Below are positions 41,725 through 60,789 of a stretch of 64,000 nucleotides of DNA, in pieces. Each line of letters starts with the position of its first letter. Position 1 is the first letter of the stretch. Under the pieces are notes generated by a model. The model was not told the DNA's origin and did not search any database. It saw only the letters and a program-made list of their open reading frames with translations. The stretch lies in NCBI RefSeq assembly GCF_001940455.1, contig NZ_MKQR01000016.1, positions 279,125-343,124 on the forward strand, in the 5' to 3' direction. This stretch comes from Actinokineospora bangkokensis. Lineage in GTDB: Bacteria; Actinomycetota; Actinomycetes; Mycobacteriales; Pseudonocardiaceae. A program made the translations under genes and the position numbers.

Positions 41725-42387
41725 TCAGGTGATCAGGCGGCTGTCGAACCCGGCGTCGACGAGGCGCGTGTAGGCGGCTTCGACGTCGTGCGGGAGGGGT
41801 TGGCGGGCGGCGAAACCGAGTTTGGGGTACTCGATAACGCGTTGCAGGTCGCCGACGAGCATGTCGATGACAAGTTTGTCGTCGCCGATGGTGTGGGCGT
41901 AGTCGGTGAGGTCGAGTGGTTCGGAGGCGCAGACGACGGTGAGGTCGGGCCAGGTCTTCTGGCAGGTGGCCAGGGCGCGGCGTTACATGTAGGGCTTGCA
42001 GATGATCAGGGCTGAGCGTGGGGTGTGGCCGTGCTCGGCCAGCAGTGCGCGGGTGAGGGTGATGTTCTGTCCCGTGTTGGTGGCCTGTGGCTCGACGAGG
42101 ATGGCGTGTTCGGGGACGCCCGCGGTGATGGCGTGGTCGCGGTAGTGCACGGCCTCCCCGCGGGGGAACACGGTGCGGGTGGTGGGGCTGTTGCCGCCGC
42201 TGAAGACGATCAGCGGTGCCAGGCCGGCGTGGTAGAGGGCGGCGGTGTGGGTGGCCACCCCGAGGTCGTGGCTGCCGAGTCCGATGGCCACGTCGCAGGG
42301 GCGCAGTGGGTGGCCGACCTGGTGGTACTGCCAGATCAGGGCCGCGTCCGCCCAGTGCTGCTCGGTGATCGTCGCGTGCGCGGTCAC
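41725..42387 (-). pseudogene. YdcF/DUF218-family protein interrupted by an in-frame TAA
   Basis: The GTG at 42387 overlaps the upstream TPR gene by 4 bases and opens a DUF218 domain: CDVAIGLGSHDLGVATHTAA, PLIVFSGGNSPTT, ILVEPQATNTGQNI and ALIICKPYM. Translation then meets TAA at 41983-41985. The same frame continues beyond it for 85 codons with sensible protein, RRALATCQKTWPDLTVVCAS, then a stop at 41725-41727. Relatives read KPYMERRA at this place, so one G-to-T change (GAA to TAA) explains the break. The truncated product of 134 aa lacks the C-terminal third. The intact remainder suggests a recent mutation or a sequencing error. Confidence 0.8.
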
Positions 42388-43279
42388 AGGGTGCCTCTCC
42401 CGTGGTCGTCGTTGTCGAAGGCGGTGCGGATGCCGAGGATGCCGGCGTGCTGGTGGGTCAGGTCGAACTCCAGCGCCAGCGTGGCGGTGTGGTCGAGCAG
42501 GCGCAGGCCTTCCTCAGCGGTGGCCCGGTCGGACAGCAGCAGGTGGCCGTGGGCGGTGTCGAGCCTGACCCGTTGCAGGGGTGAGTTGCCGACCCGTTCG
42601 GCCAGGGCGATGTCGATGTGGCGCTGGGCGCGGGTCAGATCCCCCAGGTCGCGGTGGGCGAGGGCGAGTTTCTGGTGGGCCACCGACCAGTCGGCGGGTT
42701 CGTTGAGGTCCTGGAACAGGGTCGTGGCCCGGTCGAGGTAGTCCAGGGCGTCGGCGGCGGCACCGGCTTTGCTCAGCGCGGTCCCGACCCAGAGCAGCGC
42801 GCGGGCCCGGTCGCGGGCGCTGAGCCGCACATCGGCCGCCAGCCGCCGGTAGCGCAGCGCGGCGCCGGGCAGGTCCCCGTCCATCTCGTCGACGACGACG
42901 CGGGCGAGCTGGACCTGGGCGACCCGGCGGGTGTTGCCCAGGTCGGTGAACAGGGCGTGGGCCTCGGAGTAGGCCTGTCGGGCCGAGCCGGGGCCGTGCA
43001 GGCGCCCGCGGTCGCGCTGGACGTCACCGAGCAGCACCAGCGACCGTGCCCGCAGGTGCAGGCCGTTGGCGTCGAGCCGGGCCGGGCGGCGCGCCGCAGC
43101 CACCGGTCCACCAGGGTGGTGGCGAAGGTGAAGCTCTGCTGGGCGAAGGCCGCGGCGGCCCGTTCCAGGTCGTCGGACCAATCGTCATGCACCACCGCGC
43201 CGCGTGCGGTGACCTCGTCGTGGGTGGGGTCGGTGCCGTGGAGCAGTCGTCGAAAGCGCACCCAGCCCTCGCCGTCAGC
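42384..43279 (-). pseudogene. TPR-repeat regulator, frameshifted and lacking its N-terminus
   Basis: Two overlapping frames together make one protein. From 43279 down to about 43085 the frame reads ADGEGWVRFRRLLHGTDPTH and SFTFATTLVDRWLRRAAR. The continuation ARLDANGLHLRARSLVLLGD is in the next frame and runs to 42384, with helical repeats LSARDRARALLWVGTALSKA and WSVAHQKLALAHRDLGDLTR typical of TPR units. The junction lies in GCCGGGCCGGGC at about 43077-43088. Upstream of 43279 a TAG stops the frame, and no helix-turn-helix domain is visible, so the N-terminal DNA-binding part seems lost. Such XRE-TPR regulators often head WbqC/YdcF operons. Confidence 0.7.
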
Positions 43280-50100: not shown

Positions 50101-50520
50101 TTAGACCTGTTCTCACGTGGTGAACTTCTTGAAGCAGGTGAGTGCTGCGGCGAGGGTGAGGAAGCCGAAGTAGTTGCGCCGTGGTGTTCCCACCGGGTGC
50201 CGACACGGCGTTGGTGACCGGTGAGCCAGGACAGGGTTCGCTCGACGACCCACCGGTGGCGGCCAAGTCTGGTGGAGGTGTCGATGTTCTTGCGGCTGAT
50301 GCGGACCATGATGCCCCGGTTGATCAACCATCCGCGGATTTCGTGTACGTCATAGGCTTTGTCGGCGTGGAGATTGTCGGGTCGGAACCTGCGTGCTCGT
50401 CCCGACGTGCGCACGGACGGGATGGCGTGGACGAGGACGGGCAGGGCGAGGTGGTCGTTGACGTTTGGCCACGGACATTTCGACGACCAGGGGCAGCCAC
50501 GCCTGCCCGGGAGAGCCAGC
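50101..50520 (-). pseudogene. IS5-family transposase remnant at the distal end of CRISPR array 1
   Basis: Read on the minus strand, the C-terminal part of an IS5 transposase is visible in three frames: WLPLVVEMSVA, then NVNDHLALPVLVHAIP and FRPDNLHADKAYDVHEIRGW, KLGRHRWVVERT-like RLGRHRWVVERTLSWLTGHQ, and FLTLAAALTCFKKFTT with stop at 50113. An IS-end-like sequence, TTAGACCTGTTCTCACGTGG, lies at 50101-50120 and resembles the terminal repeat of the 44279 element. The N-terminal half and the other end are missing; the remnant runs to within about 40-60 bases of the first clear CRISPR repeat. Confidence 0.75.
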
Positions 50521-50559
50521 GCGGCTCAGGCGGATCTTGCGGTGCAGCTGCTCGCTGAA

Positions 50560-51957
50560 GTTGCGATCCTCGCTGGCCCGTGAGGGCCAGCGCTGCCCGA
50601 GCGGACTCCCCCCAGGGGGCAAATCGTGTGTTGTTGCGATCCTCGCTGGCCCGTGAGGGCCAGCGCTGCGGGGGCTGCTCCACACCCCGCACGCCCAGGT
50701 TGACGTTGCGATCCTCGCTGGCCCGTGAGGGCCAGCGCTGCGACTGCGCCCGGATCCACGCCGCGTTCTGGAAGGGGTTGCGATCCTCGCTGGCCCGTGA
50801 GGGCCAGCGCTGCGGGGATGACCGGGTGGGCGTCCTACGCCCAAGAGGTTGCGATCCTCGCTGGCCCGTGAGGGCCAGCGCTGCCCGTTGGCGGCCTGGA
50901 CGATCCGGACCGTGTTGGTGTTGCGATCCTCGCTGGCCCGTGAGGGCCAGCGCTGCTGGTGGACCGCCTTGTGTTGACGGTTCTGTCGCTGTTGCGATCC
51001 TCGCTGGCCCGTGAGGGCCAGCGCTGCACGGGGTAGCCCCGATCTGGTGGACCGCCAACCGGGTTGCGATCCTCGCTGGCCCGTGAGGGCCAGCGCTGCC
51101 GCGGTGCCGTCGTAGGCCTCCACCCAGTCGACGTCGTTGCGATCCTCGCTGGCCCGTGAGGGCCAGCGCTGCTCGGCCGCCTGGATGCTGGTCTCGGTGA
51201 CCACCTCGGGGTTGCGATCCTCGCTGGCCCGTGAGGGCCAGCGCTGCTTGTGGTGGCCCTGCTGTGGATCGCCCTGACCTATTGCGATCCTCGCTGGCCC
51301 GTGAGGGCCAGCGCTGCTACAGCGGCCGGGCGATGGCGTCCAGCACCTGCGTTGCGATCCTCGCTGGCCCGTGAGGGCCAGCGCTGCCGAGACCACCTAC
51401 CAAGCCCGACGACGCGCGCTCGTTGCGATCCTCGCTGGCCCGTGAGGGCCAGCGCTGCCTGTCCTGACAAACCGTGGACCGTCACTCTCCGGTTGCGATC
51501 CTCGCTGGCCCGTGAGGGCCAGCGCTGCACCGGCGTCAGCGACTCCACCGCCGACTGGGACCCGTTGCGATCCTCGCTGGCCCGTGAGGGCCAGCGCTGC
51601 CGCCATGGGGTTGTCTCCCTGCTCGGGGGGCTCCGTTGCGATCCTCGCTGGCCCGTGAGGGCCAGCGCTGCAGGTGACCCGGTGGGCCGCGACCCGGCGC
51701 AGGGCGTTGCGATCCTCGCTGGCCCGTGAGGGCCAGCGCTGCCGGGGGCGAGGCGGTGGCGACGCAGCATGTCCGCGTTGCGATCCTCGCTGGCCCGTGA
51801 GGGCCAGCGCTGCGTGGTGGCGGCGAGCAGCCACGCCTGCTTGACGTGGTTGCGATCCTCGCTGGCCCGTGAGGGCCAGCGCTGCGTGGTGGCGGCGAGC
51901 AGCCACGCCTGCTTGACGTGGTTGCGATCCTCGCTGGCCCGTGAGGGCCAGCGCTGC
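50560..51957 (-). CRISPR. CRISPR array 1 (type I-C), 20 repeats, 19 spacers
   Basis: Repeats are 37 bases, starting GTTGCGATCC and ending GGCCAGCGCTGC on the plus strand; repeats begin at 50560, 50633, 50705, 50777 and so on to 51921. All look identical except that at 51281, whose first base is A. Spacers are 33-38 bases. On the minus strand the arms CGCTGGCCC/GGGCCAGCG enclose loop TCAC and are followed by the 11-base AGGATCGCAAC, the usual type I-C handle, so crRNAs are read on the minus strand and the leader lies above 51957. The two leader-proximal spacers (51814-51848, 51886-51920) are identical. Several spacers read as plausible protein on the minus strand (for example DVDWVEAYDGTA from 51100-51135). 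Confidence 0.97.
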
Positions 51958-52095: not shown

Positions 52096-52576
52096 CGGAA
52101 CAGCTTCTACCTCCAGTAAGGGTGTCGAGTTTTTGGCATGTTCGGTTGGCTGTCGTGCGCCCGTCCTGTGGGTATGGTTCGACGGTGCTGCGCGGGGTGA
52201 TGAGCTTGGTCCTCCTGTCGGGTGATGTGGTGTTCTTGTCTCTGAGATTGCTGCGGCGAACCGTAAGGTGATCGTATGGATGTGTAACGTTGGCGGTTGC
52301 CTCACGACGGGTAGTGCAGTGAAAGTCAGGTGTGGTGCCGACTGTTGGGCTATCCCTGGCCTTCATGGCAGTGCGGACGTGCCGAGTTGAGGAGACTTGG
52401 AGTGAATCGATTTCGTGAATACGGGGAGAGTTGATTCGAGGGGTGACGTGGCGGGATCGCCGTCGACTGGTCATGTCGAACGACAATGTCTTGTGTGGCG
52501 TGGAAGCCACGGTGGTGTCGAGACGGTCTGCCGTTGGCGTTGTGGTTGATGGTCGAGGAATGGGAGCTGATGGGTG
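52096..52576. other. Region between leader 1 and cas3
   Basis: No gene is supported. It should contain the cas operon promoter on the plus strand. Base composition is less GC-rich than the surroundings (for example 52250-52300 and 52410-52450). No clear -35/-10 pair was assigned. Confidence 0.5.
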
Positions 52577-54787
52577 ATGTGGGCGCACAGTCCGAGTGAG
52601 GTGTCCGGTGCGCTGCATGGGCTTGCTGATCACGTGCGTTCGACCGCTCGGTGGGCGCGGGTGTTCGCCGAGCCTTTCGGCGCGGGGGACCTGGCGTGGG
52701 AGTTGGGGCTGGTGCATGACGCGGGTAAGGCGCGTTGTGCGTGGCAGGAGGGGTTGCTCGCCGCGGGGACGTCGGGTGGCAGGGTGGGTGTACCGCACAA
52801 GGAGGTCGGGGCGTCGTTCATCGCGCCGCGGGCGGGGGTGGCGGCGATGGCGGTTCTGGGTCACCATGGCGGGTTGCATTCGCGGAGTTGGCTGCTTCGG
52901 TTGTTGCGGGATTCGGATTCCGAGGATGTGGGTGAGGTGATGGCCCGGTTCTTCGAGGTGGTTCCGGAGGCCGCTTGTCTTGATTCGGGGGTGTCGCCTG
53001 TGCCGTCGGGGTGGGGGAAGGACCCTTTGGTGTGGGAGATGGGGGTGCGGATGGTGTTCTCGGCGTTGGTGGATGCCGACCATCTCGACACCGCGGCGCA
53101 TTTCGAGGGTTTGGACACCGTCCGGGTGGCGGCGCAGGTGGACATGGGTGTGTTGCGTGACCGGTTCGAGGGCGCGCGTTCCGAGCGGTTCTCCGGTGTG
53201 GTCCCGTCGCTGGTCAACGAGATCAGGTCGTCTCTGTACGCGCGGGTTGTGGGGGCTGCTGGCGGTGGGCGTGGCATTTACCGGCTGCCGGCGCCGACGG
53301 GGTCGGGGAAGACTGTTTCCTCGGCGGGGTTCGCCTTGCACCATGCTGCGCGCCACAGGATGTCGCGGGTGGTGGTCGCGGTCCCGTTCACGACGATCAC
53401 CTCACAGAACGCCCAGGTATACCGTGACTTGTTGGGCCCGGAGGTGGTGTTGGAGCACCACTCGAACGCTGAGTTCGACGGCCGAGATCTGCGGTTGGCG
53501 GCGGAGAACTGGGACGCGCCGTTCGTGGTCACCACTACCGTGCAGTTGTTCGACTCGTTGTTCGGTCGCAAGCCTGCTCGCTCGCGGAAGCTGCACAGGT
53601 TGGCCAATGCGGTGATCGTGCTTGATGAGGTGCAGGCGTTGCCGTTGTCGCTGCTGGGGCCGATCCTCGATGGTCTCCGGCTGCTGTGCCGCCACTTCGG
53701 GGCGACGGTGCTGTTGGCCTCGGCAACCCAACCACCGTTCGAGCGGCTTGCGGTGTGGAAGTCCCTGGACGTGGTCGAACTGGGGGGTGACGCGGTCGCG
53801 CTGTCGACGGGTCTGCGGCGCGCGGCGTATGAGTGGAGGCTCGATCCGAGGCCGACCACGGACCAGATCGCCGCCGAGGCCGCCGAGGTGGGGCAGGCGC
53901 TGGTGGTGGTCAACACGGTGCCCCAGGCGCGGGCGATGGTCCGCGCGGTGGCTGCGGTGGCGGCGGCGTCGGCGACGGTGCTGCACCTGTCGACAAGGAT
54001 GGTTCCCGTCCACCGGGACAGGGTGTTGGCCCAGGCATGTGACCTGGTGAAGTCGGGGGACCCGGTGCTGTTGGTGTCGACCCAACTCGTCGAGGCCGGG
54101 GTCGATGTGGACTTCCCTGTCGTGTTCCGGGCCTTGGCGCCTGCGGAGTCGTTGCAGCAGGCGGCAGGACGGGCCAACCGTGAAGGCAGGCGTTCCGGGT
54201 TGGGCAGGGTTGTGGTGTTCGATGCCGAGGGCACCACGATCCCCGCGTTCTACCGGGCCGGTGTCGCCAAGACCCTGGCGTTCTTCGGGCCCGGCAAGGC
54301 CGATCCCGGCGACCCGCAGGTGTTGGCCCGCTACTACGCGAGCCTCTACTCCGCCCTCAACGTCGATGCCGATCCCCGGGCTGTGGAGATTCAGCGCAAT
54401 CGCGGTGCGCTGGACTACCTGGCTGTCGCCGAGGGCCCGGTCACCGGGTTGGGTGACGCGGACCGCCCTCTGCGCGACTCCCGATTGGCGTTCCGCATGA
54501 TCGACGAGGACCAGGTCACGGTGGTGGTCACCGACTACGACAACAACGACGAGGTCCGGGAGTGCCTGCGCCGGGTCCGTGCGGGCGACGGCCCGCTGGG
54601 GGCGCTGGTGCGGCGCATGCGCCCGTACATGCTCTCCCTGCCCCGTTCTGTCGCCTCCAGACCGGAGGTGGCCAGTCTGCTCCGCCCGGTCGTCGCAGGG
54701 CAGAGGGACCTGTGGGAGTGGGTCGGTCACTACGACCAGTTAGTGGGACTCGACGACGGTGACACGAGCGAGGAGACAGTGTGGTGA
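52577..54787 (+). CDS. cas3: CRISPR-associated helicase-nuclease Cas3 (type I-C)
   Basis: GTG at 52574 and ATG at 52577 are adjacent; ATG is taken, giving 736 residues. The N-terminal HD nuclease has LGLVHDAGKA (HD at about 47-48) and LGHHGGLHSRSW. The superfamily 2 helicase follows: RLPAPTGSGKTVSSAGFAL (Walker A near 238), VIVLDEVQALPLSLLGPILD (DEVQ box near 350), LLASATQPP, and LLVSTQLVEAGVDVDFPVVF with QQAAGRANREGR (motif VI). Cas3 is recruited by target-bound Cascade and degrades one DNA strand. All catalytic motifs are intact. It heads the cas operon. Confidence 0.95.
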   Translation: MWAHSPSEVSGALHGLADHVRSTARWARVFAEPFGAGDLAWELGLVHDAGKARCAWQEGLLAAGTSGGRVGVPHKEVGASFIAPRAGVAAMAVLGHHGGLHSRSWLLRLLRDSDSEDVGEVMARFFEVVPEAACLDSGVSPVPSGWGKDPLVWEMGVRMVFSALVDADHLDTAAHFEGLDTVRVAAQVDMGVLRDRFEGARSERFSGVVPSLVNEIRSSLYARVVGAAGGGRGIYRLPAPTGSGKTVSSAGFALHHAARHRMSRVVVAVPFTTITSQNAQVYRDLLGPEVVLEHHSNAEFDGRDLRLAAENWDAPFVVTTTVQLFDSLFGRKPARSRKLHRLANAVIVLDEVQALPLSLLGPILDGLRLLCRHFGATVLLASATQPPFERLAVWKSLDVVELGGDAVALSTGLRRAAYEWRLDPRPTTDQIAAEAAEVGQALVVVNTVPQARAMVRAVAAVAAASATVLHLSTRMVPVHRDRVLAQACDLVKSGDPVLLVSTQLVEAGVDVDFPVVFRALAPAESLQQAAGRANREGRRSGLGRVVVFDAEGTTIPAFYRAGVAKTLAFFGPGKADPGDPQVLARYYASLYSALNVDADPRAVEIQRNRGALDYLAVAEGPVTGLGDADRPLRDSRLAFRMIDEDQVTVVVTDYDNNDEVRECLRRVRAGDGPLGALVRRMRPYMLSLPRSVASRPEVASLLRPVVAGQRDLWEWVGHYDQLVGLDDGDTSEETVW

Positions 54788-55446
54788 CCACGAGTCTGCC
54801 GACATCACCCTCCGGGGCACCTCCGGTGGTGGTGCAGGTGTGGGGTGACGGGGCGCTGTTCACCCGACCGGAACTGAAGGTGGAGCGGGTGACCTACCCG
54901 GTGATGACCCCCTCCGCCGCCGTGGGGGTGCTGGAGTCGATCTTCTGGAAGCCGGAGTTAGACTGGCGGGTGGTCGCCATCGAGGTCCTCAATGAGATCA
55001 AGCAGTTCACCCAGCGTCGCAACGAGACCACGGACCTCGCCTCGCTCGCGGACGCCGCGACCGGGCGGCGCACGATCGACACCGCCGCGCACCGGGTGCA
55101 GCGCAACGCGGTGTGCCTGCGTGATGTCGCCTACCGCATCCACGCCCACGTCGACCTGCGCTCGCACGCGACCAAGCCAGAGGCCGCCTACCGCGATCAG
55201 TTCCGTAGACGGGTGACCCGGGGCAGTTGCTTCTCCCAGCCCTACCTGGGCACTCGGGAGTTCAGCGCCTTCTTCGGCGACCCCGACGACCGGGCACCCC
55301 TGCCCCGCAGCGAGGACCTGGGAATCATGCTGCACAGCGTGGACCACAGCCACACTCCCGCACGGTTCTCCTGGTTCACGGCCCGCCTGCAGGACGGTGT
55401 GCTGCACGTCCCCGCCCAGGGGATCCCCGGGAACCAGGTGGTCTGA
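54781..55446 (+). CDS. cas5c: Cas5c, crRNA-processing endoribonuclease
   Basis: Two tandem GTG codons (54781, 54784) follow GAGGAG; the first gives 221 residues. The RAMP fold is shown by VVVQVWGDGALFTRPELKVE and RVTYPVMTPSAAVGVLESIF. The family-typical segment ATKPEAAYRDQFRRRVTRGS is next, then CFSQPYLGTREFSAFFG. In type I-C, Cas5c replaces Cas6: it cuts the repeat at the base of the hairpin and stays on the 5' handle. The handle of these repeats would be AGGATCGCAAC. It overlaps cas3 by 7 bases and cas8c by one. Confidence 0.93.
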   Translation: MVTTSLPTSPSGAPPVVVQVWGDGALFTRPELKVERVTYPVMTPSAAVGVLESIFWKPELDWRVVAIEVLNEIKQFTQRRNETTDLASLADAATGRRTIDTAAHRVQRNAVCLRDVAYRIHAHVDLRSHATKPEAAYRDQFRRRVTRGSCFSQPYLGTREFSAFFGDPDDRAPLPRSEDLGIMLHSVDHSHTPARFSWFTARLQDGVLHVPAQGIPGNQVV

Positions 55447-57233
55447 TGCTGCTGCAACGACTGGCCGAACACGCCCGCCAGGACACCACTACCCGGCCGT
55501 TCCACCGGCCCCGAGCGTTTCAGTGGCAGCTGCGCATCCGGCTCGACGGCACACTCGCCGGCGACCGGGTCGAGTCGATCCAGACCCTCGACGCCAAGGG
55601 CAGACTCCAGGGCATTCCGCACACCGTCCCCGCCATCGTCCGCACGGTCGGGGTGGCGGCCAACCTTGCCGCCGACGACGCCCAGTACGTCCTGGGTTGG
55701 GGTGATGACACCACCCGACCGGAGCGGGTCGCCCGCTGCCACACCGCGTTCGTCGACCTCACCCGGCGGTGGGCGGCCAGTCCCGAGGGCCGGGACGACC
55801 CGATCGCCGCCGCGGTGGACGCGTTCTACCGCTCCGGCGCCCTCGCCACCGTGCCCCGCGACCCGGACGTCGCCGCCAAGCACGGAGTCCTGCTCACCGT
55901 CGAGGACGGGGCGGGGGTCACCCACGCCTACGACGCCCCCTCGATAAGCAGGTTCTGGGAGGGCGAGGTCGCTCGGCGCAAGGCTGGCAAGGACACAGCG
56001 GGTACGGGGCTGTGCCTGGTCTGCGGCACGGTGCGGCCGCTGCTGGACACCTTGCCCAGCAAGGTGCCCTCCAAGCTCGTGCCCGGAGCCAGCAATGACG
56101 CGGCGTTGGTCAGCGTCAACGAGCGGGTGTTCGGCTACGACCTGGGCATCCGACTGGCCAGCACACCGATCTGCATCCCCTGTGGTGAAGCGGTCTCCGC
56201 TGGCCTGGTCCGGGTGTTGTCCTCTCCGCACAGTGTCCGCCATAGTGGGCAGGACAGCTGCCTGGCCTGGTGGACGACCGAGCCCAGCGAGTTCGATCCG
56301 CTGAGCCTGGTCCTCGACGCCGATCCCGACGCGGTGACCACCCACCTTGAGACCGTCCACCGCGGCCATCCCACTCGTGCAGGCATCGAGCACGCCCAGT
56401 TCTGCGCGGTGACCGTCGGGGGCAACATCGCGCGGATCATGGTGAGGGACTGGTTGCAGATGCCGTTGCCGCAACTCGACGCCCGCATCAGCAGCTGGTT
56501 CGACGACCAGCGCGTGACCCCCGCCCGCGCCAGCGAACACGAGTACCAACCGCTGCAGCGGTTGGTACTGGTCTGCGGCAGGTGGTTGCGCCGCGAGAAG
56601 CGGTACGTCTTCCTCGAGGCCAAGGGCGCCGACCGGCCAGCCGGTGTCGAGCGTGACCTGCTGCGGGCGGCCATCCGTGGGACCCCGCCACCGGCGTCGC
56701 TGCTGGTCCACGTGATCAACCGGGTCCGCAGCGACGGCCACCTGGACACCGCGCGAGCAGGGCTGATCCGCCTGTGCCTCGTCCGATCCCCCCTCACCTC
56801 GGAGACACCGTTGCCTGGCCTGGATCCCACCAACACCGACCCCTTCTACGTCGCAGGACGCGTATTCGCGGTGTTGGAGGCCATCCAGCACGCGGCCTCC
56901 GACGGCAAGCTCAACACCACCTACGGCGACCGGTACTTCGCCGGGGCCATCACCACCCCGCGCGCAGCAATCGTCAACGGCCGCAAAGACGCCAACGCCT
57001 GGCTGCGAAAACTCCGCAGGAGCAACCCCGGGGCCGCGGTGAACAACGAGAAGGCCCTCGACGAACTCTTCGGCCTGCTCGACAGCACAGCCATCCCCGG
57101 CCACGCCTCCCTGCCCCAGCAGGGCCAGTTCCTGCTCGGCTACCACCACCAACGCGCCCACCGCTTCCAGACCATTCGCGGGGCCACCGCCACCGACACC
57201 CCGAGCACCGACAACCAGGAGCACCACGCATGA
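55446..57233 (+). CDS. cas8c: Cas8c (Csd1), large Cascade subunit
   Basis: ATG at 55446 (TGATG overlap with cas5c) gives 595 residues, the usual size. Family features are the start MLLQRLAEHARQD, a zinc-finger pair CLVCG and CIPCGE in the middle, and a helical C-terminal domain. Cas8c recognises the PAM (TTC in most I-C systems) and stabilises the R-loop. The C-terminal 140 codons probably also encode a separate small subunit from an internal start (see 56811). The stop overlaps the cas7 start (ATGA). Confidence 0.93.
   Translation: MLLQRLAEHARQDTTTRPFHRPRAFQWQLRIRLDGTLAGDRVESIQTLDAKGRLQGIPHTVPAIVRTVGVAANLAADDAQYVLGWGDDTTRPERVARCHTAFVDLTRRWAASPEGRDDPIAAAVDAFYRSGALATVPRDPDVAAKHGVLLTVEDGAGVTHAYDAPSISRFWEGEVARRKAGKDTAGTGLCLVCGTVRPLLDTLPSKVPSKLVPGASNDAALVSVNERVFGYDLGIRLASTPICIPCGEAVSAGLVRVLSSPHSVRHSGQDSCLAWWTTEPSEFDPLSLVLDADPDAVTTHLETVHRGHPTRAGIEHAQFCAVTVGGNIARIMVRDWLQMPLPQLDARISSWFDDQRVTPARASEHEYQPLQRLVLVCGRWLRREKRYVFLEAKGADRPAGVERDLLRAAIRGTPPPASLLVHVINRVRSDGHLDTARAGLIRLCLVRSPLTSETPLPGLDPTNTDPFYVAGRVFAVLEAIQHAASDGKLNTTYGDRYFAGAITTPRAAIVNGRKDANAWLRKLRRSNPGAAVNNEKALDELFGLLDSTAIPGHASLPQQGQFLLGYHHQRAHRFQTIRGATATDTPSTDNQEHHA
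56811..57233 (+). CDS. cas11c: Cas11c small subunit from an internal start within cas8c (predicted)
   Basis: In type I-C systems the small subunit is known to be made by internal initiation inside cas8c. Here an in-frame TTG at 56811 follows GGAG (56801-56804) at a spacing of 6 bases. It precedes DPTNTDPFYVAGRVFAVLEA, the region where known Cas11c proteins begin, and continues KLNTTYGDRYFAGAITTPRA to the cas8c stop. The product would have 140 residues, all-helical. The start is a prediction; the family fact is established. Confidence 0.65.
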   Translation: MPGLDPTNTDPFYVAGRVFAVLEAIQHAASDGKLNTTYGDRYFAGAITTPRAAIVNGRKDANAWLRKLRRSNPGAAVNNEKALDELFGLLDSTAIPGHASLPQQGQFLLGYHHQRAHRFQTIRGATATDTPSTDNQEHHA

Positions 57234-58114
57234 ACGCCCCCCACCTGGACCCGACCGTCCGCCACGACATCGTGTTCCTCTTCGACGTCACCGACGGCAA
57301 CCCCAACGGCGACCCCGACGCGGGGAACCGGCCCCGCACCGACGACGAGTCCGGACAAGGCCTGGTCACTGACGTCGCCCTCAAACGCAAGATCCGCGAC
57401 ACCCTCGCCCTCGCCGCTCCCGGGGAACCCCGCTACGGGATCTTCGTCGAGGCCGGGCACGCCCTCAACCCGCGCCTGGAAGCCTCCTACACCGCCACCG
57501 GCCTGACCCTCGGCGACAAGAAGATCACCGAGGACAAGGCCGCCCAGGCCCGCGCCTGGCTCTGCGACCGCTACGTCGACCTGCGCCTCTTCGGTGGCGT
57601 GCTCTCGGTCGGCAACACCGGCCGCCTGGGCCAGATCCGCGGCCCGCTGCAGGTCGGCATGGCCCGCAGCATCGACCCCGTCCTGCCCACCGACCACACC
57701 ATCACCCGGGTCACCCAGACCAAGCAGGCCGACATCGACAAGGGCGAGACCACCGAGATCGGCAGCAAGTGGACCGTCCCCTACGGTCTCTACCGCACCG
57801 AGCTGTACTACTCCGCCACCCGCGGCAGCCAAACCGGTGTCGACACCCGAGACCTCGAACTGCTGCACCGCTGCCTGGAGATGATGTTCGACCACGACCG
57901 CTCCGCCACCCGCGGCCGCCTCGCCCCCCGTGGCCTCTACGTCTTCAGCCACTCCGACGCCTTCGGCGCAGCACCCGCCCACCGACTCCTCGAACGCGTC
58001 CACGTCACCCGCCCCGACACCACCACCCCCGCTCGTGCGTTCACCGACTACACCGTGTCCATCGACGACGATGGACTGCCCACCGGGGTGACCCTGACCA
58101 AACTCATCGCCTGA
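57230..58114 (+). CDS. cas7c: Cas7c (Csd2), Cascade backbone
   Basis: The 294-residue RAMP protein has the start HDIVFLFDVTDGNPNGDPDA, NRPRTDDESGQGLVTDVALK, LRLFGGVLSVGN and KWTVPYGLYRTELYYSA, all typical of Csd2. Several copies coat the crRNA spacer. ATG at 57230 overlaps the cas8c stop. Confidence 0.95.
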   Translation: MNAPHLDPTVRHDIVFLFDVTDGNPNGDPDAGNRPRTDDESGQGLVTDVALKRKIRDTLALAAPGEPRYGIFVEAGHALNPRLEASYTATGLTLGDKKITEDKAAQARAWLCDRYVDLRLFGGVLSVGNTGRLGQIRGPLQVGMARSIDPVLPTDHTITRVTQTKQADIDKGETTEIGSKWTVPYGLYRTELYYSATRGSQTGVDTRDLELLHRCLEMMFDHDRSATRGRLAPRGLYVFSHSDAFGAAPAHRLLERVHVTRPDTTTPARAFTDYTVSIDDDGLPTGVTLTKLIA

Positions 58115-58122
58115 CTCCGATC

Positions 58123-58746
58123 GTGCAAGAAGACAGCACTCCCAGCATCCCCCTCTCGGCGCTGGAACACCACGCCTACTGCCCACGCCAAGCCGTCCTG
58201 ATCCACCTTGATGGCTACTTCGACGCCAACGTCGACACCATCCGTGGGGATCTCGCCCACGCCGCGGTCGACTCCGGTGGGCCAGGCAAGGACCGCGACG
58301 GCACGCGGGTGTGGCGGTCGCTGCCTGTGGTGAGCCACACCCTGCGGGTGCACGGTGTGTGCGACGTGGTTCGGTTCGAGTCGACCGGGCACGTCCCGGT
58401 CGAGCACAAGTCCGGTGCGTATCGACCTGGGGGACCGGCCGACGTCCAAGTCGCTGCTCAAGCGCTCTGCCTCAAAGAGATGTTCGGGACCCCGGTCCCG
58501 ACCGGCGTCATCTTCGCCGGCGCGGACCGCAGGCGCCACGTCGTCGACATCGACGCCCCGCTCCGGGCGCGGGTGGTCGAAACCACCCGCGCCCTGCGCG
58601 CCCTTTTGGCTGGCGTTTTCCTACCGGCCCCGGTCAACGATCGCCGCTGCCGCCGTTGTTCCCTGCGCGAAGGGTGCATGCCCGACGTTCCCGTCGACCC
58701 CGGAACGTTGTTCACTGCGCGACCGGAAGCGAGTTGGGATGACTGA
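58123..58746 (+). CDS. cas4: Cas4 exonuclease (adaptation)
   Basis: GTG at 58123, 8 bases after the cas7 stop, gives 207 residues. Four cluster cysteines are present: C20 (AYCPRQ) and C176, C179, C185 (CRRCSLREGC). The RecB-type nuclease motif appears as HGVCDVVRF and VPVEHKSGA, then VQVAAQALCL. Cas4 trims prespacers and selects those with a correct PAM. All catalytic residues are intact. The end overlaps cas1 by 8 bases. Confidence 0.92.
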   Translation: MQEDSTPSIPLSALEHHAYCPRQAVLIHLDGYFDANVDTIRGDLAHAAVDSGGPGKDRDGTRVWRSLPVVSHTLRVHGVCDVVRFESTGHVPVEHKSGAYRPGGPADVQVAAQALCLKEMFGTPVPTGVIFAGADRRRHVVDIDAPLRARVVETTRALRALLAGVFLPAPVNDRRCRRCSLREGCMPDVPVDPGTLFTARPEASWDD

Positions 58747-59754
58747 GCTTCTGCGGACTCTCTTCGCGACCACCGCGGGCACCCACCTGCAACTCGACGG
58801 TGACACGATCAGGATCATCCACCCAGAGCGGCCCGGCCGTCACCTGCTCCCCCTGGTCCGTTTGGACCACGTCGTCGCCTGGAACGGGGTGACCATCACC
58901 GACGACCTCCTGCATCGCTGTGCCGCGGATAGCCGATCGGTCACCTGGGTGACGCGCAACGGCCGTTTCCTCGCACGCACGAGTGGCCCCATCACAGGCA
59001 ATCCCCACCTGCGCCTGGCCCAGTACCGGGCCCACGATGACCCGTCCCACCGATTGCATCTGGCCCGCACCTTCGTCGCAGGCAAGTTGCATAACTACCG
59101 CCAACTGCTCCTGCGCGCGGCCCGCGACAGCACTGGCGCTCATCAGACCCGGCTGCGCGCCATCGCCGAGCACCATGCCGCCGCCCTCACCCGTCTCGCC
59201 GAAACTCGTAGCCTCGACGAGGTGCTCGGCATCGAGGGCAACGCCGCGCGCAGATACTTCCAGAACCTGGCCTTGCTCGCCCCAGGCGCTTTCCCCGGCC
59301 GGTCTCGACAACCGCCAACAGACCCGATCAACTGTCTGCTTTCCTTCGGGTACGGCATGCTCCGCGTCGCCGTTCACGGTGCGCTCGAACAAGTCGGTCT
59401 CGATCCCTATCTCGGCTACCTGCACGGCATTAGACCCGCGAAACCCGCTCTCGCACTCGACCTCATGGAGGAACATCGACACTGCTTGTCGACCGCTTCG
59501 TCCTCACCCTGCACAACCGAGGCCAACTCCACCGCCGCCACACCGAGGAACTACCAGGAGGCGCAGTCCAACTCACCGACCAAGGCCGCACCTTCTTCCT
59601 CGAACAATGGTCGAAGGCCAGAGCTCGGACGTGGCACCACGCCCCGCTCAACCGCGAGATCCCCGCCGCACTGCTCCCCCTGATCCAAGCCCGTCTCCTC
59701 GCTCGACACCTCCGCGGCGACACCCACACCTACCAACCCTGGACGTTGACCTGA
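58739..59754 (+). pseudogene. cas1: Cas1 integrase, frameshifted near its C-terminus
   Basis: ATG at 58739 opens a normal Cas1: LRTLFATTAGTHLQLDGDTI, LGIEGNAARRYF (Glu166), YLHGIRPAKPALALDLMEE (His229, Asp241). All three metal-binding residues are therefore encoded. After CATCGA (59474-59479) the reading shifts by one base. The expected C-terminus, LLVDRFVLTLHNRGQLHRRH and later TFFLEQWSKARARTWHHAPL, RHLRGDTHTYQPWTLT, runs in the -1 frame from CTG 59482 to TGA 59752-59754. Restoring one base gives 338 residues, the family length. No slippery heptamer is present. As it stands, the product ends in about 65 aberrant residues (stop near 59683). A real mutation, or a sequencing error, is possible. 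Confidence 0.88.
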
Positions 59755-60044
59755 TGGAACTGCTCATCACCTACGACGTCGACACCACCACCCCCGCAGG
59801 CCAACGTCGTCTGCGCCAGGTGGCCAAAGCGTGCGAAGGAGCCGGTCACCGCGTGCAGAAGTCCGTTTTCGAGGTCGTCTGCGACCCCGCACAACGACTG
59901 CGGCTCGAGGCAACCCTCACAGAGCTGATCAACCCCCGAACCGACTCCATTCGCATATACCAGCTCACCAAGGGAACCCTCGCCACCGCACGACACCTCG
60001 GCGCGGCAACCAACCCCGGCCATCACGACCCACTGGTCTTCTAG
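59754..60044 (+). CDS. cas2: Cas2, adaptation complex subunit
   Basis: ATG at 59754 overlaps the end of the restored cas1 frame (TGATG), giving 96 residues. MELLITYDVDTTTPAG has the conserved Asp8; VAKACEGAGHRVQKSVFEVV is the usual second motif and SIRIYQLT the beta strand. Cas2 dimers hold two Cas1 dimers. The gene is intact. The overlap with the shifted cas1 frame supports the view that cas1 was recently in one frame. Confidence 0.93.
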   Translation: MELLITYDVDTTTPAGQRRLRQVAKACEGAGHRVQKSVFEVVCDPAQRLRLEATLTELINPRTDSIRIYQLTKGTLATARHLGAATNPGHHDPLVF

Positions 60045-60173: not shown

Positions 60174-60789
60174 GTTGCGATCCTCGCTGGCCCCGGAGGG
60201 CCAGCGCTGCGTCCACACGTACAGGTCGGGGGCGGCGGAGCCGCGGCTGTTGCGATCCTCGCTGGCCCCGGGGGGGCGCTGCTGCCTGCTGCCCGTCCCG
60301 GACCAGCCAGGCGCGGGAGTTGCGATCCTCGCTGGCCCCGGAGGGCCAGCGCTGCGCCCGGTCTTCGGGTTGACCCCGCCATCGACAACCTGTTGCGATC
60401 CTCGCTGGCCCCGGAGGGCCAGCGCTGCCGGATCACCAGGTGGCACCCCATGTCGGCGCCGACGTTGCGATCCTCGCTGGCCCCGGAGGGCCAGCGCTGC
60501 CGCGGGTGTCGCCCGCGTGGAAGTCGAGGACGGTGTTGCGATCCTCGCTGGCCCCGGAGGGCCAGCGCTGCCCGTGGTGGCGGCGAGCAGCCACGCCTGC
60601 TTGACGTGGTTGCGATCCTCGCTGGCCCCGGAGGGCCAGCGCTGCGCGAACACCGACAGGTACACGGTGCACCTGCACCAGTTGCGATCCTCGCTGGCCC
60701 CGGAGGGCCAGCGCTGCTACGCGGTCACCGACACGGTCAACGTCGTGTTGTCGTTGCGATCCTCGCTGGCCCCGGAGGGCCAGCGCTGC
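60174..60789 (-). CRISPR. CRISPR array 2 (type I-C), 9 repeats, 8 spacers
   Basis: Repeats start at 60174, 60249, 60319, 60392, 60464, 60535, 60609, 60681 and 60753, each 37 bases. They differ from array 1 at two loop bases: GGCCCCGGAGGGCC in place of GGCCCGTGAGGGCC. The minus-strand loop is thus TCCG, not TCAC. The repeat at 60249-60285 has a degenerate second half (GGGGGGGCGCTGCTGC) and could not form the hairpin. Spacers are 33-38 bases. Spacer 60572-60608 contains the 35-base spacer that is duplicated in array 1 plus CC at one end. Orientation is minus, with the leader above 60789. A possible further decayed repeat ends at 60140. Confidence 0.96.

Follow-up and report, generated by a model that had tools for sequence, protein, structure and literature searches.

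The type I-C CRISPR-Cas locus of the soil actinomycete Actinokineospora bangkokensis raises the question of whether a system can keep its stored immunity after losing the ability to extend it. We analysed a stretch of 64,000 nucleotides from this species (the window), in which a sequence-only reading had described a type I-C operon that is complete except for cas1, broken by one base. Is the break real, how old might it be, and what would it do to the system?

Organization of the locus

The genes follow the type I-C order cas3, cas5c, cas8c, cas7, cas4, cas1 and cas2, with cas1 present but frameshifted (Table 1). The signature gene of the subtype, cas8c (Csd1), is present (TIGR01863), and two CRISPR arrays are associated with the operon. 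Our profile scan took in eight stretches, the two cas1 pieces and six complete cas genes. Each of these six exceeded the curated cut-off for one or more of the expected NCBIfam models and had near full-length matches in five relatives (genomes G011, G034, G044 and G065, and Lentzea terrae); for cas3, residues 1 or 2 to 737 were matched in all five. The description of the locus as otherwise complete therefore holds, the other six cas genes being intact.

Table 1. Features of the type I-C locus (window coordinates)
Feature	Position	Strand	Remarks
array A	50560..51957	-	20 repeats of 37 nt, 19 spacers
cas3 (HD nuclease-helicase)	52574..54787	+	intact; TIGR01587 and TIGR01596 above cut-offs
cas5c	54781..55446	+	intact; TIGR01876 above cut-off
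cas8c (csd1)	55437..57233	+	intact, start approximate; TIGR01863 above cut-off
cas7 (csd2)	57230..58114	+	intact; TIGR02589 above cut-off
cas4	58120..58746	+	intact, start approximate; TIGR00372 above cut-off
cas1 5' piece, original frame	58739..59479	+	247 codons, with E166, H229 and D241
one-base-short stretch of cas1 relative to orthologues	59473..59481	+
out-of-frame tail of the 0-frame cas1 product	59480..59683	+	67 residues and stop
cas1 3' piece, -1 frame	59482..59754	+	90 codons and TGA stop overlapping the cas2 start
cas2	59754..60044	+	intact; PF09827 and TIGR01573 above cut-offs
array B	60174..60789	-	9 repeats, 8 spacers

In array A, 19 of the 20 repeats are identical and one has a single mismatch; a degenerate repeat-like stretch with 12 mismatches (50489-50525) is found at its left end. 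Eight of the nine repeats of array B are identical, the degenerate one lying at 60249-60285, and the repeats of the two arrays differ at two positions. The genome paper predicts four CRISPRs (PMC6273641, as far as accessible), whereas our repeat pattern search of the genome gave these two arrays. The remaining two may have other repeats or may be splits of arrays A and B.

One missing base divides cas1

Where a single uninterrupted frame of about 340 codons would be expected, cas1 is broken after codon 247. The original frame opens with the ATG at 58739, closes with the stop codon at 59681-59683 and encodes 314 aa. The first 247 residues match positions 2-250 of the 340 positions of the Cas1c model TIGR03640, while the last 67 leave that match. 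It is taken up again in the -1 frame, where positions 59482-59751 encode 90 residues that match Cas1c positions 253-339 of 340. Taken on its own, this 3' piece reaches an E value of 9.2e-28, far beyond chance. Both pieces exceed the PF01867 cut-off; neither reaches the full-length Cas1c cut-off, since each covers only a part of the model. The -1 frame stop (59752-59754) falls inside the cas2 start (TGATG).

Codon-position GC changes frame where the Cas1c matches do. It is 0.72/0.49/0.77 before the shift and, behind it, 0.73/0.47/0.78 in the -1 frame compared with 0.46/0.76/0.76 in the original frame. Measured against its orthologues, cas1 (58739-59754) is one base short at about 59473-59481; the missing base cannot be placed more finely because substitutions fall in the same stretch. 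E166, H229 and D241, which we take to be the Glu/His/Asp metal ligands of the Cas1c integrase, are present in the original frame and invariant in eight aligned sequences. The Cas1c matches in both frames and the codon-position GC thus confirm what had been proposed from the sequence alone, a one-base frameshift after catalytic residues that are themselves read normally, with the Cas1 C-terminus continuing in the -1 frame up to a stop that overlaps cas2.

The sequence-only reading had suggested a comparison with cas1 of related strains, and this comparison sets the gene apart from nearly all its relatives. Of 150 genomes searched, our own included, 27 had a Cas1 match at E 0.001. We read the frames of eleven full-length type I-C cas1 genes from those 27 (own left out) and of the gene from Lentzea terrae, and all 12 consist of one open frame of 338-342 codons. 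A draw of 397 genomes of the order gave 27 matches at E 1e-30, 12 of which were at least 60% identical. Ten of these are intact, the window's own cas1 is in two pieces, and that of A. pegani is in pieces as well. Four of the ten were new, each with a single stop-free match over residues 1 to 336 or 337 of 338. The overall tally is 16 intact genes and two broken ones. With a disabling lesion where 16 orthologues are intact, the window's cas1 has the mark of a pseudogene. At E 0.001 or better, PF01867 matches only the two cas1 pieces in this genome, so that no second Cas1 is seen that could take over.

Mutation, assembly error or slippage

It is possible that cas1 is intact in the strain and that the draft genome lost the base in error. 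The A. bangkokensis 44EHW-T draft comprises 7,453,713 nucleotides in 32 scaffolds; according to the accessible part of the genome paper, the strain was sequenced twice, by 454 and on an Illumina HiSeq 1000, and all reads first went through the GS de novo assembler (PMC6273641). A Newbler-based draft that includes 454 reads leaves room for such an error. So does the 3' piece, which shows little or no relaxation, as an assembly error would give the same coding-like signature.

Indels in 454 data gather in homopolymers. The shift site is not one: three identical bases in a row occur no closer than 59444 and 59507, and no run at the site exceeds two bases, unlike the usual sites of 454 indels. The residue adjoining the shift is unusual too, since position 246 in the original frame is H here but L or F in the 12 relatives whose frames were read. 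Given sequencing by both 454 and Illumina and the lack of a homopolymer, we regard an assembly or consensus error as unlikely.

A frame-plot scan over 463,875 of the 7,453,713 bases of the genome yielded 28, 17, 6 and 2 candidates at thresholds 3, 5, 8 and 12. The strict two, at window position 43094 and at position 380875 of contig C16, are further frameshift-like places in the 463,875 bases of contig and to that extent favour an assembly error. Owing to its atypical codon usage, cas1 itself escaped the scan, appearing in neither the set of two nor the set of 17. The scan can thus serve as no more than a rough guide, and says only that genes with typical codon usage do not commonly carry gross frameshifts. 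The window candidate lies on the minus strand (42387-43279), and its second piece has weak TPR matches below the curated cut-offs. The other is also on the minus strand (C16:380420-381815), in a gene whose start presumably resembles that of a helix-turn-helix regulator.

Slippage of the ribosome or polymerase, programmed or merely tolerated, could also yield some full-length Cas1 from a gene of this kind. The 3' piece would allow it, being still coding-like, with no -1 frame stop before 59752 and with its stop still overlapping the cas2 start. However, there is no in-frame X XXY YYZ slippery heptamer between 59380 and 59683, as the sequence-only reading had noted in judging programmed frameshifting less likely, and runs of A or of T in the same interval do not reach four bases. 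A conserved shift at this site is likewise not seen, since sixteen relatives read straight through. We therefore give this explanation very little credence.

Two possible causes of a mutation were considered and set aside. A maximum chi-square scan of the window, G011 and G007 (A. pegani) across cas1-cas2 placed a breakpoint at 59497, near the shift (permutation p 0.0006 over 59072-59760 and 0.0036 over 59072-60044). Identity between the window and A. pegani is almost flat around this position (0.84-0.86 in the flanking sliding windows), and G011 departs from both. Since the window-A. pegani identity is steady, the mosaic seems to be G011's or A. pegani's, and the frameshift is not tied to the breakpoint; a recombination junction was accordingly dropped as its cause. 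In the comparison of 59072-60044, the cas1 of one of these two genomes looks mosaic, with the breakpoint near 59497. Visual inspection showed a perfect inverted repeat (6-base arms, 5-base loop) across the shift site. The operon of 7.5 kb holds 40 such inverted repeats (loop 3-8), with about 2.5% of positions in a 5' arm. The coincidence is weak given this frequency, and we make no claim of a templated mutation.

Age of the lesion

The sequence behind the shift has kept the signature of a coding region. Its differences fall mostly on third positions (17/10/41 by codon position relative to G011, with pN/pS 0.27; 6/6/25 relative to A. pegani, with pN/pS 0.31), and no stop has arisen. For the intact pair G011-A. 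pegani, pN/pS over the same 90 codons is 0.245. Before the shift, the window gave 0.19 with G011 (0.13 for the last 90 codons) and 0.23 with A. pegani. Of 58 columns on which three outgroups agree, 6 differ in the window and 5 in G011. Because the stretch behind the shift still diverges much like coding sequence, the lesion appears on these figures to be recent on the scale of species divergence, or else an artefact. The intact pair has 0.28 before and 0.245 behind the shift position, while the window pairs run the opposite way, higher behind. This makes a slight relaxation, and hence an older lesion, possible, though 90 codons give such a comparison little power.

Consequences for the Cas1 protein

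Together the two pieces align with nearly the whole length of type I-C Cas1 (TIGR03640; PDB 8d3l and 8d3p, from the type I-C Cas4-Cas1-Cas2 complex). An AlphaFold model of the intact G011 Cas1 (mean pLDDT 74) has its best PDB matches in the type I-C Cas1 chains 8d3p and 8d3l, from which the window differs in having its frame broken after residue 247. TM-scores were 0.64-0.66 and rmsd 14-16; the high rmsd may come from two lobes that the model sets differently. D241 lies in the first turn of helix 238-260 of this model. This helix is interrupted by the shift at residue 247, and helices 281-296 and 310-325 are lost from the window's product.

A one-base frameshift in the helix of the catalytic Asp would thus leave a 314-residue product in which a foreign tail replaces the last ~90 residues. 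Such a shortened Cas1 would probably be unable to form a working Cas4-Cas1-Cas2 integrase, and no new spacers would then be acquired. A split Cas1 with the 3' piece as a separate subunit is unlikely, because the first start codon in the frame of this piece is only a TTG at 59746. The effect may extend to cas2, whose translational coupling may weaken since the 0-frame stop ends 70 bases before its start.

The truncated Cas1 with its altered tail had also been suggested to act differently, and we found no positive evidence for this part of the sequence-only reading. An independent role for the shortened Cas1, for example as a Cas4 partner or as a nuclease that does not integrate, would be compatible with the retention of E166, H229 and D241. 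The Asp-bearing helix is cut, however, as judged from the G011 model, and a tail of this kind is absent from the 12 relatives whose frames were read. In the model of the window's 0-frame product, pLDDT stays below 50 from residue 185 on and the tail is not predicted to fold; this is a weak test, as the low values are partly due to the poor alignment behind the shift. A new function of the 67-residue tail thus seems highly improbable to us.

Probable interference without acquisition

We consider it probable that cas1 is a recent loss-of-function allele, with acquisition lost and interference likely intact. crRNA processing and interference through Cas5c, Cas7, Cas8c and Cas3 would continue with the 27 stored spacers, 25 of them different. 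An analogy comes from Xanthomonas oryzae: with cas1 and cas2 both deleted, its type I-C system processed crRNA and interfered with plasmids as before, according to the accessible part of the study (PMC8406640). Interference in A. bangkokensis is likely to be intact as well. Together with the lack of a second cas1, this analogy makes the proposal that the system can interfere but no longer acquire spacers the best-supported inference. Stored immunity would work and new acquisition would not. The species would thus offer a named type strain whose type I-C system is most likely able to interfere, but no longer to learn, at a locus that surveys by gene order alone would call complete.

Lesions of this kind have been met before. 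In the accessible parts of the respective papers, the type I-C system of Streptococcus mutans UA159 is suggested to be inactive through truncated cas1 and cas8c (PMC7316486), and pseudogenes are described in cas operons of Escherichia, Salmonella and Shigella that can otherwise still be recognised (PMC2886076). As far as these sources go, S. mutans UA159 has a truncated cas8c besides its truncated cas1, whereas the window's other six cas genes are intact; the decayed enterobacterial loci belong to other subtypes, with cas3 and cse1 decayed beside otherwise intact genes (PMC2886076). A further candidate parallel (PMC10333696) was rejected, as the truncation seems, from the part available, to concern Cas10. 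Nothing closer was found in the accessible literature on cas1 frameshifts, cas1 pseudogenes and loss of adaptation. The window's cas1 lesion looks like a new example of a known, ordinary kind of gene decay. The accessible literature on Actinokineospora and CRISPR gave no published account of this cas1 locus, and the genome paper, in its accessible part, makes no mention of cas1 (PMC6273641).

A probable record of past acquisition in the arrays

A spacer of 35 nt occurs in two copies at the putative leader end of array A (51814-51848 and 51886-51920) and in one copy in array B (60572-60608), where it is third from the inferred leader and 2 nt longer at the left end. Read on the minus strand, the repeats end in ATCGCAAC, which we take to resemble the ends of known type I-C repeats. 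On account of this ending and of the degenerate repeats towards the left ends, we place the leaders on the right, putatively from 51958 onward for array A and from 60790 onward for array B; the crRNA strand of array A would then be the minus strand. The two putative leaders have a common 44-base stretch (82% identity), and related stretches occur in A. pegani and G011.

Each copy of the shared spacer is flanked by the repeat of its own array, so that separate acquisitions from one protospacer would best explain its presence in both. We consider an exchange between arrays A and B within the spacer sequence less likely. Simple duplication may account for the pair within array A. Provided that the arrays are oriented as proposed, the end of the spacer that stays fixed is its PAM side. 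This agrees with a report that processing by type I-C Cas4 appears to be confined to the PAM-proximal end (PMC6519985, as far as accessible). Since arrays A and B share a spacer despite their different repeats, this lineage was probably still able to acquire spacers before the lesion arose, and the arrays would hold a small record of that ability.

As to the targets, the whole arrays A and B gave no phage match at E 0.1. The shared spacer had weak phage matches only (four records, best E 0.1), its first 23 nt found no exact match in viral contigs, and within its own genome it does not occur beyond its three array places at up to 3 mismatches.

Possible recurrence of cas1 decay in Actinokineospora

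Among the 15 other genomes of the genus that were searched, cas1 was found in two: G011 has it intact, A. pegani in pieces. The A. pegani pieces lie at four contig ends (contigs 36, 106, 105 and 85; L023-L026) that share 355 identical cas1 bases. Both 5' copies are broken: one combines a deletion with a frame change, and the start of the other falls between residues 62 and 88, depending on the search. One 3' copy departs after residue 228, while the other runs intact into cas2, with two arrays downstream. If the contigs are right, no pairing of them yields an intact gene, and A. pegani seems to have none. As in the window, no intact copy is seen, but the breaks lie elsewhere and arose by truncation, frame change and deletion.

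In all, 16 genomes of the genus were searched, ours included; cas1 was found in three of them, and two of the three show no intact copy. Because the A. pegani contigs also give no intact gene, cas1 loss may recur in the genus, and A. bangkokensis and A. pegani together suggest that cas1 is a weak point of these loci. The further claim that the genus repeatedly and independently loses acquisition through cas1, keeping its arrays and interference genes, seems rather doubtful to us, and three species are too few for any claim of selection. If selection does favour a frozen memory, for example against the capture of self-DNA, the genus would be a natural test case.

Two further observations concern these genomes. 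Contig 106 of A. pegani carries a second, divergent set of cas3, cas5, cas8c and cas7 (L024:2050-7819; 35-56% identity), with short arrays on both sides; no cas4, cas1 or cas2 match was found on this contig except the cas1 piece at its end. In G011, a remnant at L027:9567-9794 joins cas1 residues 182-228 directly to cas2 residues 59-95. A CRISPR repeat is found close to this remnant, and about 78 kb separate it from the intact operon of G011.
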